The notes below the pieces were generated by a model. That model was not told the origin of the DNA and searched no databases. It was given only the letters and a program-made list of their open reading frames with translations. A stretch of 64,000 nucleotides of DNA from an uncultured Brachyspira sp. (lineage in GTDB: Bacteria > Spirochaetota > Brachyspiria > Brachyspirales > Brachyspiraceae): positions 1 through 64,000 of the forward strand of contig NZ_CALXRM010000002.1 of the NCBI RefSeq assembly GCF_944390845.1, given 5' to 3'. The position numbers were made by a program, and so were the translations under genes. Shown here in pieces: positions 503-26,031 of this stretch; the stretch's first letter is position 1, and the number at the start of each line of letters is the position of its first letter.

Positions 503-1993
503 ATGAAAAAGCAAGTAGTTTTTATTATGACAGATTCTACCAGAAAAGACATGCTTGGCTGTTATGGTAATGAAAAAATGATTACTCCTAATTTGGATAA
601 ATTAGCAGAAAATGGCATTAAATATGAGAATGCTTATACTTGTCAGCCAGTATGCGGACCAGCAAGAGCATCTATATTTACAGGTACTTCTCCTCATACA
701 AACGGAATGGTTGCAAGCTGTGTTTCTATGAGAGAGGGCGTTAAAAATATAGGACAAATATTAACCTCTAATAATGTACATTGCGGATATATAGGTAAAT
801 GGCATCTTGACGGAGGAGACTATTTCGGATATGGTGTATGTCCTGACGGCTGGGATAAAAAGTACTGGTATGATATGAGGACATATCTTGAAGAATTAAG
901 CGATGAAGATAGAGTAAAATCAAGAAAGTCGGAAACTTCTTATGATCCTGATATGAAAGAAGATTTTACTTATGCACATAAATGTTCAAATAGAGCTATT
1001 AATTTTTTAGATGAATATAAAAATGATGATTTTCTTTTAGTTGTTTCTTATGATGAACCTCATGGGCCTTGTTTATGTCCTAGTCCTTATAATACTATGT
1101 ATGATGGTTTTAAATTTGATGATGATACTGCATTTAATGATGATTTAAGCAATAAGCCCTTTATGCAAAGATTATGGGCAGGAGATAATTTAAATAAAAA
1201 AGCTGATGAAATAAATAAACCATCAAAGCAATTATCTTTATTTTTAGGATGCAATTCTTTTGTTGATTATGAAATAGGAAGGGTACTTAATAAAGTAAAT
1301 GATATAGCTCCTAATGCTATGATAATATTTACTTCAGATCATGGTGAAATGTTGGGTGCTCATAAATTAAATGGCAAAAATGCAAGTGCTTATAAAGAAG
1401 TTGCTAATATTCCTCTTATTATAAAATATAAAGAAAAAGGAAAAATAATATCGTATCCGGCTTCTCATATAGATTTAGCTCCTACTATATTGGATTATAT
1501 GAATATAAAAATCCCTGTTGCTTTTGAAGGTAAAAGTATGATGAAGCAAATAGAGGATACTTCTGTAAGAATAAATGATGAAGTATTTGTTGAATTTACA
1601 AGGTATGAAATAGATCATGACGGATTCGGAGGACTTCAAATGATGAGGGCTATTGTTAATGACAGATATAAGCTTGTTATTAATTTGCTTGATACAGATG
1701 AATTCTATGATTTGGAAAAAGATCCTCATGAAATGATTAATCTTATAAATGATGAAAATTATAAAGATATTAGAAACAGCATGCATGATAAGCTTTTGGA
1801 TAACATGAATAAAACTAGGGATTTATACAGAGGCTATCAATGGGCATCAAGGCCTTGGAGAAAAGATAGAATACCTTCTTGGAATAATGATGGATATACT
1901 AGACAGCGTGAAAATGAAGAGGGTGAAATTAGACAGCTTGATTATGAAACAGGTCTTACTATGATTGATTCTGTTAGAAAGAAGAAATTGTAA
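503..1993 (+). CDS. Cys-type sulfatase
   Basis: A 496-residue sulfatase of the alkaline phosphatase superfamily. The signature Cys-x-Pro-x-Arg is at C51-G-P53-A-R55, so the Cys-type formylglycine precursor is present. D11 in the opening FIMTDS strand and D279-H280 in the SDHG motif fit the calcium-binding site. There is no signal peptide, so the protein is probably cytoplasmic and may act on imported sulfated or phosphonate sugars; the substrate cannot be read from the sequence. In anaerobes this type is matured by a radical SAM anSME enzyme; none is adjacent. An AAGAGG ribosome site precedes the ATG. It stands alone between repeats. Family assignment is firm, substrate unknown. Confidence 0.9.
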   Translation: MKKQVVFIMTDSTRKDMLGCYGNEKMITPNLDKLAENGIKYENAYTCQPVCGPARASIFTGTSPHTNGMVASCVSMREGVKNIGQILTSNNVHCGYIGKWHLDGGDYFGYGVCPDGWDKKYWYDMRTYLEELSDEDRVKSRKSETSYDPDMKEDFTYAHKCSNRAINFLDEYKNDDFLLVVSYDEPHGPCLCPSPYNTMYDGFKFDDDTAFNDDLSNKPFMQRLWAGDNLNKKADEINKPSKQLSLFLGCNSFVDYEIGRVLNKVNDIAPNAMIIFTSDHGEMLGAHKLNGKNASAYKEVANIPLIIKYKEKGKIISYPASHIDLAPTILDYMNIKIPVAFEGKSMMKQIEDTSVRINDEVFVEFTRYEIDHDGFGGLQMMRAIVNDRYKLVINLLDTDEFYDLEKDPHEMINLINDENYKDIRNSMHDKLLDNMNKTRDLYRGYQWASRPWRKDRIPSWNNDGYTRQRENEEGEIRQLDYETGLTMIDSVRKKKL

Positions 1994-4440: not shown

Positions 4441-4872
4441 TTAATCGTCCCAGTTTTGTCCCATTAACTGACCATTAGCTGATATATATAATTCCATCAT
4501 ATTGTTTAATTTTACTTTATAATTTCCCCATTCTTTTTCAACATCAATAACTCTGGCTTGTGGATAAGCACGTTTTATAGTGCCTGATATAGCTTGAGGT
4601 AAAGCACTGAAAGGAACACCATTATATTCACCGTCTATACTGTGCCAGTTGCCATTAGCTAAAAAGTCTATAGAAGCACCATTTGATAATTTAACTTCAT
4701 ATTTACCATCATCTCTTTCAACTTTCCATATTTTTACACCAGGATAAATTCTTTGTATGAATGCTCTTGATTTTTGTGGTAATGAAGAAGCTGGTACTAC
4801 CCAATCAGCAAAAAGACTTGAAGTTGAAACTACTGTTAATGTTATTAATAAAGCAAATAATTTTTTAGTCAT
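4441..4872 (-). CDS. periplasmic PepSY-like (DUF2874-type) protein, copy 1
   Basis: A 143-residue exported protein with a signal peptide at about residues 1-22 (cleavage near SLFA-DW). The mature part is two related halves of about 55 residues, each with an (A/T)(F/I)I.R.YP motif, a KVERDDGKYEVKL or DVEKEWGNYKVKL strand pair and a closing hairpin. This is the fold of PepSY-like/DUF2874 proteins, which are small periplasmic proteins of unclear function. A close paralogue with nearly the same sequence is at 25600-26031, and both share a distinctive promoter. AAGGAG precedes the ATG. Monocistronic. Confidence 0.8.
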   Translation of the reverse strand: MTKKLFALLITLTVVSTSSLFADWVVPASSLPQKSRAFIQRIYPGVKIWKVERDDGKYEVKLSNGASIDFLANGNWHSIDGEYNGVPFSALPQAISGTIKRAYPQARVIDVEKEWGNYKVKLNNMMELYISANGQLMGQNWDD

Positions 4873-19826: not shown

Positions 19827-22505
19827 TTATATTTCTTCATTAAAGCCTAGTGACAAATCTATTTCTTTACTGTAATTGTTTTCATAATTCCATTTATATA
19901 GTTTCCAATTATTAGTGTTTAATATATTATTTTTTACATGATAATAAGTATTAAAATCATAAGTATTTGAATTTTGTTTCTCAGGCTTCCAGCTTCTGAT
20001 TCTTATTATATTAGCACCATTTGTTTTATAATCATTAGTTATTATTTTATTATTGAATCTGTTTTTTATTCCTTTTATATGCTTAGTTGCTAAATATGGC
20101 ATGTCTGCTACCGTCATAAAGTTAGTATTTATAATTAATCTTCCTTTTGAATTAAAATCTTTATACATCAGTAAAGCATTATATAAGGCAATGAATTTCA
20201 TATTAGGCTTATCAAAATATTTAGAATTTACTCTATAACCATGATCTGAAATTATTATTATTTTAGTATTATTATAAATATTATTTTGTTTTAAAAAATC
20301 TATTATTTTAGCAACTGATTTCATAGAAGCAGCATTAGCATAAAAATGTTTAACGCTGTTAGTATCTTTATATATTTTCAAATCATTTGTATCTATATAA
20401 TTTGAATTAACTGTAGGTATTAAACTAGGCAAAAAATAATGAGGTTCATGGGTTGTATTATTATGAAGTATATTATAATTATTGCCTTTTTCTTCTATAT
20501 TAATCAAATCTTTTATAGAATCCAATATAGCATAATTTTCTATGCTTGTATTCATAGTATTATTTTTATTTATAAACCATCTGCTTCCGCTGTATAATGT
20601 TTGTCTGAACCATACCGGAATCATTCTAAAAAATGAAAATCTAATCAATTTATCATTATCCAAATTATCTGTATAAATATTATTTTCATTTGTATATTTG
20701 TTTATACTATAATCATAAATATAATCTTTATTATAGGCTTTTATATTGGTAAAATTATTAAATATACTTAAATCACCTTCAAAAGACATGTTGGCATAAA
20801 CTGGTTCAAATATGTATGATTTATAATTGTATCTCTCTAAAGTGAAAGGAAGCATTAATAGTGCTTTATTATGAACATTTGTAAGATTATATTTTTTATT
20901 CGTACTAATTTCATAAGGCAAATAATCATAACCTCCATAAAGAGAAGCTATTGTTATTGTATTATAGTTATAAGAAACTGTATTAGGATAAAGTACAAAA
21001 CCATCAAATATATCTTTATAATTATCGAATCTATTAAATGCATCTAACCAATATGTTGATACGGCTCTGTCTAGTATTATTACAAATATATTATTTCCTT
21101 TCTTTGAAATATTGAATATTTTTTCATTATCAGAAATCTTTTTAGTAATTTTATTGTCATTATAATTTAATATTCCATAAGTATAAAAAATAGAAGATAA
21201 AATTAATACTAAAGATATTATAGAATAAATGTTTATTAAAATACTGCATTTATATTTTATTATCATTATAGAAATAAATACCAATGAAACAGATATAATT
21301 AAAATATTTATTATTATATCTTTAAAAGAAGGAATAAGAGAATTAACATTATCAAATATAAAATCAGAATTAATATTTGAATAATTTCCGCTTAAAACAA
21401 ATGTATCAAGTACGAATAATATTGCTAAGAAAGAAAAAATTAAAGTTAAATAGTTTTTTATTTTACTGGAAAATAATGCATATAAAAAAATTGGATAAAA
21501 TAAAAATATTCCAATACTTATAGAAAAATTATTAATAATCAAAATTAAATGATTTTTAAAATCGGATATGGAACTATTAATCAATGAACTTGGTATAAAT
21601 AATCCTGATAATATTGCAATAATTAAACATGATGCTATAAGAAGTTTTTTTCTATTTTTTATAAAAACTTTATTTTGAATAAGTAATTTATCTATATAAT
21701 CAAAATTTAATGTCGCTAGTACTGCTATGAATAAAGTTAAAATAATATCTATTTTTTTATTTGAAAAAAACAATAATATTACAAAAATTAATACCGCTGC
21801 TGTATTGTATAATAATTTATTTTTATCGAATAATTTATATATTTTGTATTCTATAACTATATTTTTAACTAATGAAAACAAACAATTCAAATTCCAATAA
21901 AACAATAATCCGGAAGGAGAATTATAGAGTAAAACCAAAAATATTATTGATGTAATATAAAGAGGCATACTTTCTTTAAAACTTAATTTTTTACTGTAAA
22001 CAAATCCTGCAAGAATACTAAAAATTGTCATAGTAAAAGGCAGTAAATTAATACCATTAATCAAATTATCAGGCTTTGAAAAGTCTTTTATAAATAAAAA
22101 AGAACCTTGAGATAAATCATTCAAACTATATATAAAATTATAAGCTGCAATAAAAAAAGGTATTTGTATAAGCAACCCTAAAACACCTCTGAAAGCATAA
22201 ATCATTTTATATCCGTTAATTCTTTGGCAGGTTCTTATAAGCAAATAACGCTGATCGCCTTTATATACGGATTTTATATTATCTATCATCTGCTTCATTT
22301 TGTTTTGAATATCACGTTCTTTGCTTTGCCATATTTCTGCTATATTGTAAAGAGGCAGTGATAATAAATTTACAGATAAACTTAATAAAAATATACTCAT
22401 GCTGTATGAACAATTCAATATATTATTAAATAGAAAAAATAATATTTCTATAATGAATTCTATTGGGTAAATAATAATATTATATAATATATTCAATATG
22501 AGCAT
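19827..22505 (-). CDS. YidC/Oxa1-like domain fused to a sulfatase-fold (LTA synthase-like) domain
   Basis: An 892-residue membrane protein. Residues about 1-225 look like the YidC/Oxa1 insertase core: a membrane segment, a charged cytoplasmic loop, then GLLIQIPFFIAAYNFIYSL and LYNSPSGLLFYWNLNCLFS, both YidC signatures. Residues about 225-440 add several hydrophobic helices. From about 470 the protein is an alkaline phosphatase/sulfatase fold: NIFVIILDRAV gives a metal Asp, NTITIASLYGG a likely Thr/Ser nucleophile region, and IIISDHGYR (near residue 753) the second metal site. The latter resembles phosphoglycerol or phosphoethanolamine transferases. A role in moving a head group onto a surface glycan is inference. 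Stands alone beside repeats. Confidence 0.75.
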   Translation of the reverse strand: MLILNILYNIIIYPIEFIIEILFFLFNNILNCSYSMSIFLLSLSVNLLSLPLYNIAEIWQSKERDIQNKMKQMIDNIKSVYKGDQRYLLIRTCQRINGYKMIYAFRGVLGLLIQIPFFIAAYNFIYSLNDLSQGSFLFIKDFSKPDNLINGINLLPFTMTIFSILAGFVYSKKLSFKESMPLYITSIIFLVLLYNSPSGLLFYWNLNCLFSLVKNIVIEYKIYKLFDKNKLLYNTAAVLIFVILLFFSNKKIDIILTLFIAVLATLNFDYIDKLLIQNKVFIKNRKKLLIASCLIIAILSGLFIPSSLINSSISDFKNHLILIINNFSISIGIFLFYPIFLYALFSSKIKNYLTLIFSFLAILFVLDTFVLSGNYSNINSDFIFDNVNSLIPSFKDIIINILIISVSLVFISIMIIKYKCSILINIYSIISLVLILSSIFYTYGILNYNDNKITKKISDNEKIFNISKKGNNIFVIILDRAVSTYWLDAFNRFDNYKDIFDGFVLYPNTVSYNYNTITIASLYGGYDYLPYEISTNKKYNLTNVHNKALLMLPFTLERYNYKSYIFEPVYANMSFEGDLSIFNNFTNIKAYNKDYIYDYSINKYTNENNIYTDNLDNDKLIRFSFFRMIPVWFRQTLYSGSRWFINKNNTMNTSIENYAILDSIKDLINIEEKGNNYNILHNNTTHEPHYFLPSLIPTVNSNYIDTNDLKIYKDTNSVKHFYANAASMKSVAKIIDFLKQNNIYNNTKIIIISDHGYRVNSKYFDKPNMKFIALYNALLMYKDFNSKGRLIINTNFMTVADMPYLATKHIKGIKNRFNNKIITNDYKTNGANIIRIRSWKPEKQNSNTYDFNTYYHVKNNILNTNNWKLYKWNYENNYSKEIDLSLGFNEEI

Positions 22506-25599: not shown

Positions 25600-26031
25600 A
25601 TGATAAAAAGATTATTTGTTTTATTAATATCATTAACTATTTTTTCAGCATCAAGCTTATTTGCAGATTGGGTAGTTCCAGCTTCTTCACTTCCGCAGAA
25701 AGCTAGATCATTTATACAGCAAGTATATCCTGGTGTTCAAATATGGAAAGTAGAAAGAGATGACGGAAAATTTGAAGTTAGTTTATCAAATGGTTCTAAA
25801 ATAGATTTTATGCCTAATGGAGAATGGGTAAACATAGACGGAGAATATAATCCTGTACCTATGAATGTATTACCTCCAGCAGTTGCAAACACAATAAAAA
25901 AGACTTATCCTCAAGCTATGGTTGTAGATGTAGAAAAAGAGTGGGGCAATTTCAAAATAAAACTTAATAATATGATGGAATTATACGTATCATCTAATGG
26001 ACAGTTAATGGGACAGCAATTTGATGATTAA
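25600..26031 (+). CDS. periplasmic PepSY-like (DUF2874-type) protein, copy 2
   Basis: A 143-residue paralogue of the 4441-4872 protein, equal in length and similar throughout. It has a signal peptide of about 22 residues ending SLFA-DW, then two repeated halves with FIQQVYPGVQIWKVERDDGK and VDVEKEWGNFKIKL. Differences are mostly conservative (MPNGEWVNIDGEY against LANGNWHSIDGEY). Such proteins are small, stable, exported beta-proteins of unclear role; co-control of two copies suggests an envelope response. The promoter described at 25479-25561 and AAGGAG lie upstream; a terminator follows at 26079. Confidence 0.8.
   Translation: MIKRLFVLLISLTIFSASSLFADWVVPASSLPQKARSFIQQVYPGVQIWKVERDDGKFEVSLSNGSKIDFMPNGEWVNIDGEYNPVPMNVLPPAVANTIKKTYPQAMVVDVEKEWGNFKIKLNNMMELYVSSNGQLMGQQFDD

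Follow-up and report, generated by a model that had tools for sequence, protein, structure and literature searches.

A widespread spirochete fusion of a YidC-like domain and a sulfatase-fold domain, a candidate transferase of cell-surface head-groups

RESULTS

The Fusion Gene and Its Copies in the Host Genome

The window considered here is a 64,000-nucleotide stretch of DNA from an uncultured Brachyspira sp. (GCF_944390845.1, NZ_CALXRM010000002.1, positions 1 to 64,000 of the forward strand; genome G000). It contains an ORF with an ATG start and no internal stops, in which a YidC-like domain precedes a membrane unit and a sulfatase-like domain. The features assigned to this gene are as follows.

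19827..22505 (-): whole fusion gene, 892 aa; a single open frame with full-length relatives in many genomes
21840..22505 (-): YidC-like domain, residues 1-222 (60KD_IMP match at 21849-22406); Pfam E 1.9e-19, and YidC structures are the only PDB matches for a model of residues 1-225
22368..22370 (-): Asn46, at the site of the positive groove residue of canonical YidC; family comparison
22188..22190 (-): Arg106, a near-invariant position in the YidC-like domain that is specific to the fusions; present in 107/111 of these, as compared to Gly in 13/15 canonical YidC proteins
21678..21818 (-): extra two-helix membrane hairpin, residues 230-276; AlphaFold model, hydropathy and family alignment
21168..21671 (-): five-helix membrane unit, residues 279-446, LtaS/EptA/PbgA-like; AlphaFold model and Foldseek matches including full-length PbgA, MCR-1 and EptA
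19830..21116 (-): alkaline-phosphatase-fold (sulfatase-like) domain, residues 464-892; Pfam, fold search, helix count and loop charges
21069..21071 (-): Asp479, in the LDRA motif and predicted to bind metal; invariant in 106/106 relatives
20958..20960 (-): Thr516, predicted catalytic nucleophile; invariant in 106/106, and placed relative to the metal ligands as its YejM/LtaS counterparts are
20448..20450 (-): His686, in the THEP motif and predicted to belong to the active site; invariant in 106/106 relatives
20241..20246 (-): Asp754-His755, predicted metal ligands (SDHG motif); invariant in 106/106 relatives

A sequence-only reading of this ORF had described YidC hallmarks in the N-terminal part, and these are borne out. 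The motifs that it quoted are present (QIPFFIAAYNFI at residues 114-125, PSGLLFYWNLN at 197-207, LDRAV at 478-482 and SDHG at 753-756), and Pfam identifies 60KD_IMP at residues 34-219, above the cut-off, and Sulfatase at residues 519-764 (E 1.2e-5), just over it (25.2 bits against 25). The same reading had allowed for an assembly error joining two genes. The one-frame fusion was, however, found again in many assemblies of independent origin, complete single-contig genomes among them, and this recurrence rules out both a joining error and a chance join.

The presence of a separate canonical yidC in the same genome, which that reading had proposed to check, was confirmed (620 aa; G000:C90), and as such, the fusion was rejected as the housekeeping insertase. 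Indeed, canonical yidC was found in every genome examined. Two further members of the fusion family are encoded in the genome of the window, namely a 930-aa protein (G000:C33) and a copy missing its N-terminal part at a contig end (G000:C39), with in-frame stops in the last bases of that contig. The latter is neighbored by a gene for the PF04464 partner described below, two cytidylyltransferase-choline/ethanolamine kinase genes and an EutH homolog. The window copy has no PF04464 partner alongside, and its own context (a LiaF-like gene plus rsmD, metX in some species) is kept in about 12 Brachyspira genomes. Scans for promoters and terminators performed no better than with shuffled sequences.

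The YidC-Like Domain

Although it had been envisaged that the first 225 residues might prove structurally unrelated to YidC, their fold is that of YidC. When these residues were modelled alone, the only PDB matches were YidC proteins (B. halodurans and E. coli; TM 0.54-0.69), with no other fold in the PDB giving an E below 1.5. In the AlphaFold2 model of the fusion, the YidC-like core retains the C1 hairpin (helices 34-80 and 83-96). By NCBIfam, the N-terminus falls with YidC, yet its score of 73.9 bits lies below the TIGR03592 cut-off of 84.3. The groove position is occupied by Lys in 15/15 canonical spirochete YidC proteins and by Ser, Thr or Asn in 109/111 fusions, with no basic residue being seen there among the 111. 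Arg106, Lys214 and Asn215 are near-invariant across the fusions and different in canonical YidC, and the Tyr-Trp of the last YidC-domain helix is invariant in the fusions. Mean pairwise identity is 57% for the YidC part, as compared to 37% for the catalytic part, and the two parts co-vary across sequence pairs (Spearman 0.77). Judged from these comparisons, the YidC part is diverged, yet strongly constrained.

YidC homologs are said to conserve the positive groove residue strictly (PMC8920935); because this defining residue was sought in the fusions and is replaced in them, the fusion is not classed as a YidC insertase. At the same time, groove charge can be dispensable when neighboring residues keep the groove hydrophilic or aromatic (PMC8920935), such that insertase activity could have survived the loss of charge. 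The YidC-like part might accordingly act as a dedicated insertase, or as a chaperone of assembly, whose client would be the transferase itself, the PF04464 partner or some other membrane protein of the pathway, as would be compatible with a true YidC fold, a retained C1 hairpin and an invariant last-helix Tyr-Trp. We nonetheless regard such a role as unlikely, given the canonical yidC of every genome examined, the fact that known LtaS/EptA enzymes require no insertase of their own, and the disappearance of the basic groove residue from every fusion examined, together with the gain of invariant residues of their own.

The Membrane Unit and the Catalytic Domain

The AlphaFold2 model of the fusion, built on an alignment of 106 natural relatives, was obtained with a pLDDT of 91.5 and a pTM of 0.85. 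That the C-terminal 420 residues adopt a sulfatase fold with LDRAV and SDHG motifs, as first read, holds for the domain and its motifs; the unit is larger, however, adding five helices (residues 279-446) after the hairpin at residues 230-276. In long paralogs, family alignment reveals an insert of about 100 residues in this hairpin, on what is predicted to be the outer side. If the YidC core keeps its usual orientation, the seven further helices would place the catalytic domain outside the inner membrane, with loop charges being mostly consistent with that location. In a Foldseek search of the PDB with the whole model, PbgA was the top match, followed by MCR-1, with LtaP, YejM, EptA, LtaS and sulfatases found lower.

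LtaS relies on Glu255/Asp268, Thr300/Thr302 and an Asp-His pair, with YejM using related positions (PMC7576196). By pattern and spacing, rather than through an aligned crystal structure, D479, T516, D754 and H755 of the fusion appear to correspond to these LtaS residues. MCR-1 and EptA use phosphatidylethanolamine via a Thr nucleophile, and MCR-1 works with the head-group attached to its own Thr285 (PMC12658134). In our judgment, the C-terminal half would act in the manner of LtaS/EptA-type transferases. The earlier assignment to a phosphotransferase or hydrolase class, as well as the description of the architecture as unusual, are both upheld. A type I (formylglycine) sulfatase was also considered and rejected, as the C/S-x-P-x-R motif is absent, the residues around T516 being YNYNTITIASLYGG.

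Instead of a transferase, the catalytic half could be a hydrolase or regulator that trims or senses surface lipids, as proposed for PbgA/YejM, with the YidC-like part serving only as a scaffold or lipid sensor. YejM likewise has Asp as its first metal ligand, PbgA heads the list of structural matches, and the fold also includes phosphonate monoester hydrolases and sulfatases. Yet all catalytic residues are invariant, and tandem copies beside donor-activating genes, described below, suggest synthesis on several acceptors, leading us to deem a hydrolase or regulator improbable and to prefer a transferase.

Distribution of the Fusion Family

The proposed survey of taxa and flanking genes revealed the fusion in about 100 of 393 sampled Spirochaetota genomes, usually with a PF04464 partner and head-group activation genes nearby. 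More precisely, when the membrane-plus-sulfatase part served as query (E 1e-10 or better), matches were obtained in 105 of the 393 genomes and in 30 of the 168 genera that these represent, including weak matches in two genomes (G115 and G131) with only a canonical-range YidC score. Brachyspira species contain zero to six fusion copies. Treponema and related lineages commonly have full-length relatives, at 30-35% identity, and the genes often occur two or three in tandem, with successive genes overlapping by a few bases. The best 80 matches in a scan of contigs were to spirochete loci only, apart from one Dysgonamonadaceae bin that is perhaps misbinned, while a plasmid search yielded no match; the family is thus seen in spirochetes, with sampling beyond the phylum being limited. 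The architecture is real, widespread and made of known families. It is also apparently undescribed, no published account of a YidC-sulfatase protein having been found in the literature searched, which mostly excluded subscription papers.

The PF04464 Partner

Clustering of neighboring genes at about 100 loci identified the most widespread neighbor as a protein of 405-430 aa with a PF04464 CDP-glycerol glycerophosphotransferase-like domain and a conserved N-terminal hydrophobic segment, YIDPGTGS. The profile of this partner matches 103/393 genomes, 100 of which also contain the fusion, leaving five genomes with the fusion only and three with the partner only as exceptions (Fisher p 5.5e-83, with no correction for relatedness). 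In Brachyspira, the partner was found in 12/15 fusion-positive and 0/11 fusion-negative genomes, the three fusion-positive bins in which it was not detected being 85-91% complete. Among the 89 partner genes listed, at least 57 lie within 200 bp of a fusion gene and at least 80 within 6 kb.

Neighboring Head-Group Chemistry

Other neighbors of the fusion genes encode PEP mutase, phosphonopyruvate decarboxylase and a cytidylyltransferase fused to an aminotransferase, or a cytidylyltransferase-choline/ethanolamine kinase together with EutH or an EamA transporter, as well as heptose-related enzymes and glycosyltransferases. The activating enzymes among these neighbors would usually supply CMP-aminoethylphosphonate, CDP-choline/ethanolamine or similar donors; in T. 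denticola, PntC makes CMP-aminoethylphosphonate (PMC6697681). PEP mutase was sought in the genome of the window and none was found, although the gene lies beside fusion-family members in other Brachyspira and in Treponema.

Specialisation of the fusion for a head-group by phylogeny was unsupported among 37 Treponema sequences, which do not cluster by type of neighboring activator (11 changes, against a shuffled mean of 12.7). For the PF04464 partner, such clustering was strong when all loci were taken together, although genus is a confounder there, and only weak within Treponema. Because the Treponema fusions do not cluster by activator and several paralogs share one activator, we suggest that the paralogs may differ in acceptor.

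A small PF01467 cytidylyltransferase, of a family that includes glycerol-3-phosphate cytidylyltransferases, was found at two loci. Polymerisation by the fusion of a teichoic-acid-like chain, through LtaS-like transfer of glycerol-phosphate from phosphatidylglycerol and with the PF04464 partner priming or extending, would suit this enzyme, the CDP-glycerol:poly(glycerophosphate) family of the partner and the presence of LtaP and LtaS among the fold matches, but most neighboring activators indicate aminoethylphosphonate, choline and ethanolamine rather than glycerol, and we accord this polymerase as little credence as the hydrolase or regulator.

Several additional ORFs were noted at these loci. 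Cytidylyltransferase-class I/II aminotransferase fusions, predicted to be head-group activators, adjoin the fusion or the partner at L122:12804-14795 and L130:13931-15766. In seven Brachyspira loci, the gene immediately following the fusion encodes a SpoIID/LytB-domain protein, and a homolog occupies that place in a related genus of the family (L061:3815-5077; L166:4351-5493). The window also encodes a pair of similar proteins of 143 aa, each with an apparent signal peptide (4441-4872 (-) and 25600-26031 (+)), and their family recurs near the fusion in many Brachyspira loci. Two recurring families of 560-670 aa without a Pfam match lie near Treponema clusters (L153:18744-20483 and L133:18035-19936). 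Separately, the window encodes at 503-1993 (+) a protein of 496 aa that matches Sulfatase and SGSH_C strongly and has a CGPAR (C-x-P-x-R) motif; by these sequence features, it is a type I sulfatase of the classical kind, and no signal peptide is evident.

Split Versions and a Second Fusion

The three genomes containing the partner and not the fusion are G109, G182 and G221, the last being a 66% complete bin. In G109 and G182, the partner gene is flanked on one side by a YidC-like gene that stands alone (238 and 286 aa, respectively) and on the other by a gene for a separate membrane protein (607 and 594 aa), and these split loci adjoin PEP mutase, phosphonopyruvate decarboxylase and cytidylyltransferase-aminotransferase genes. 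The 607-aa protein contains Pfam Sulfatase, and the 594-aa protein is 55% identical to it. A second kind of fusion was also identified:

L170:16285-18837 (G361:C60): second YidC-sulfatase fusion, 850 aa; YidC-like domain joined to another sulfatase subfamily, that of the 607-aa protein, with a PF04464 partner adjacent

This protein shares 29% identity with the 607-aa protein over 378 aa (E 1e-44), while blastp of its C-terminal part against the window protein gave no match. The two kinds of fusion look independent. The occurrence of two kinds of fusion and of unfused versions in one gene context is good evidence that the YidC-like part, the sulfatase-like part and the PF04464 partner serve one process. 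In Treponema putidum, YidC-like and sulfatase-like sequences split near the domain boundary are found as adjacent ORFs beside intact fusions (L140:13947-21837), which could be a case of gene fission or decay.

DISCUSSION

A Proposed Role in Surface Decoration

YidC is known as an insertase, and recent in vitro work has revealed that YidC and its relatives also scramble lipids. We know of no bacterial pathway that uses such scrambling. For E. coli YidC, which scrambles phospholipids in vitro, simulations traced the lipid path to the same groove as is used in insertion (PMC10491306). The suggestion of the sequence-only reading that the YidC part handles lipid or polymer and is not an insertase gains indirect support from this activity, from gene context, from the separability of the domains and from the loss of groove charge; its second half is less secure, since insertase activity could still be present.

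We consider it somewhat better than an even bet that the fusion is an extracytoplasmic transferase that decorates surface glycans with phospho- or phosphono-head-groups, the lipid donor being moved or held by the YidC-like part. In such a scheme, a head-group (choline, ethanolamine, aminoethylphosphonate or another amino compound) would be CDP- or CMP-activated in the cytoplasm, where the PF04464 partner probably attaches the activated group to a lipid, yielding the donor or its precursor. Via the YidC-like groove, the polar head-group would then reach the outer leaflet, or be displayed there, beside the transferase. Outside the inner membrane, Thr516 and the bound metal would take the head-group from the lipid donor, following which it would be passed from Thr516 to a surface glycan or glycolipid. 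The analysis itself shows the predicted fold of both halves, catalytic residues that do not vary, a conserved fusion, the partner, the activating neighbors and the natural splits; the topology, transferase rather than hydrolase activity, the donor, the acceptor and the lipid-handling role are inferred.

Several points count against this transferase scheme. The window copy has no adjacent partner, and the three Brachyspira bins mentioned above have the fusion and no detected partner. A glycan in the cytoplasm could be the direct substrate of the PF04464 enzyme, in which case the fusion would use another donor, such as phosphatidylglycerol. As the fusions do not cluster by neighboring activator type in Treponema, donor specificity is unproven. 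Finally, other LtaS/EptA enzymes, to our knowledge, work without a YidC-like part.

Overall, the fusion probably decorates the cell surface, with an insertase fold that was probably reused for lipid handling. The broader notion that a bacterial domain of the YidC/Oxa1 family physiologically moves lipid-linked head-groups across the inner membrane is advanced more tentatively. Under this notion, the domain would be coupled to the outer transferase in a single polypeptide and to the inner donor-making enzyme through the operon, forming a three-part 'make, flip, transfer' machine that decorates spirochete surfaces with phospho- and phosphono-groups. If real, such a machine would supply late steps that the phosphonate tailoring pathway still lacks. 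Because the YidC fold is here tied by fusion and operon to lipid head-group enzymes, a role in lipid handling becomes testable. Genes of the family are also candidates for the steps that follow CMP-aminoethylphosphonate in treponemes, as well as for surface decoration by spirochetes of the gut and mouth.

Comparison With Known Systems

The fusion shares with YidC/Oxa1/Alb3 insertases (PF02096, TIGR03592) a five-helix core, the C1 hairpin and, by structure search, the same fold. It differs in the added seven-helix and phosphatase-fold unit, in having Ser/Thr/Asn in place of the basic groove residue, in scoring under the TIGR03592 cut-off and in not being the housekeeping copy of its genome. Like LtaS, EptA, MCR-1 and PbgA (YejM), it is predicted to have five helices followed by an outer phosphatase-fold domain with a Thr nucleophile and Asp-His metal ligands; unlike these proteins, with which it shares very low sequence identity, it contains an N-terminal YidC-like module and a linking hairpin and is genetically tied to a PF04464 partner. 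That partner belongs to the same Pfam family (PF04464) as the wall teichoic acid enzymes TagB and TagF, but possesses the YIDPGTGS segment and is found in outer-membraned spirochetes beside phosphonate, choline and ethanolamine activators. As in the Pnt phosphonyl tailoring and Lic phosphocholine pathways, the neighbors would supply CMP-aminoethylphosphonate or CDP-choline/ethanolamine. Lic phosphocholine decoration uses LicD. For Pnt, the steps after activation are described as unknown, and it is here that a PF04464 enzyme and a YidC-sulfatase protein are proposed to act.
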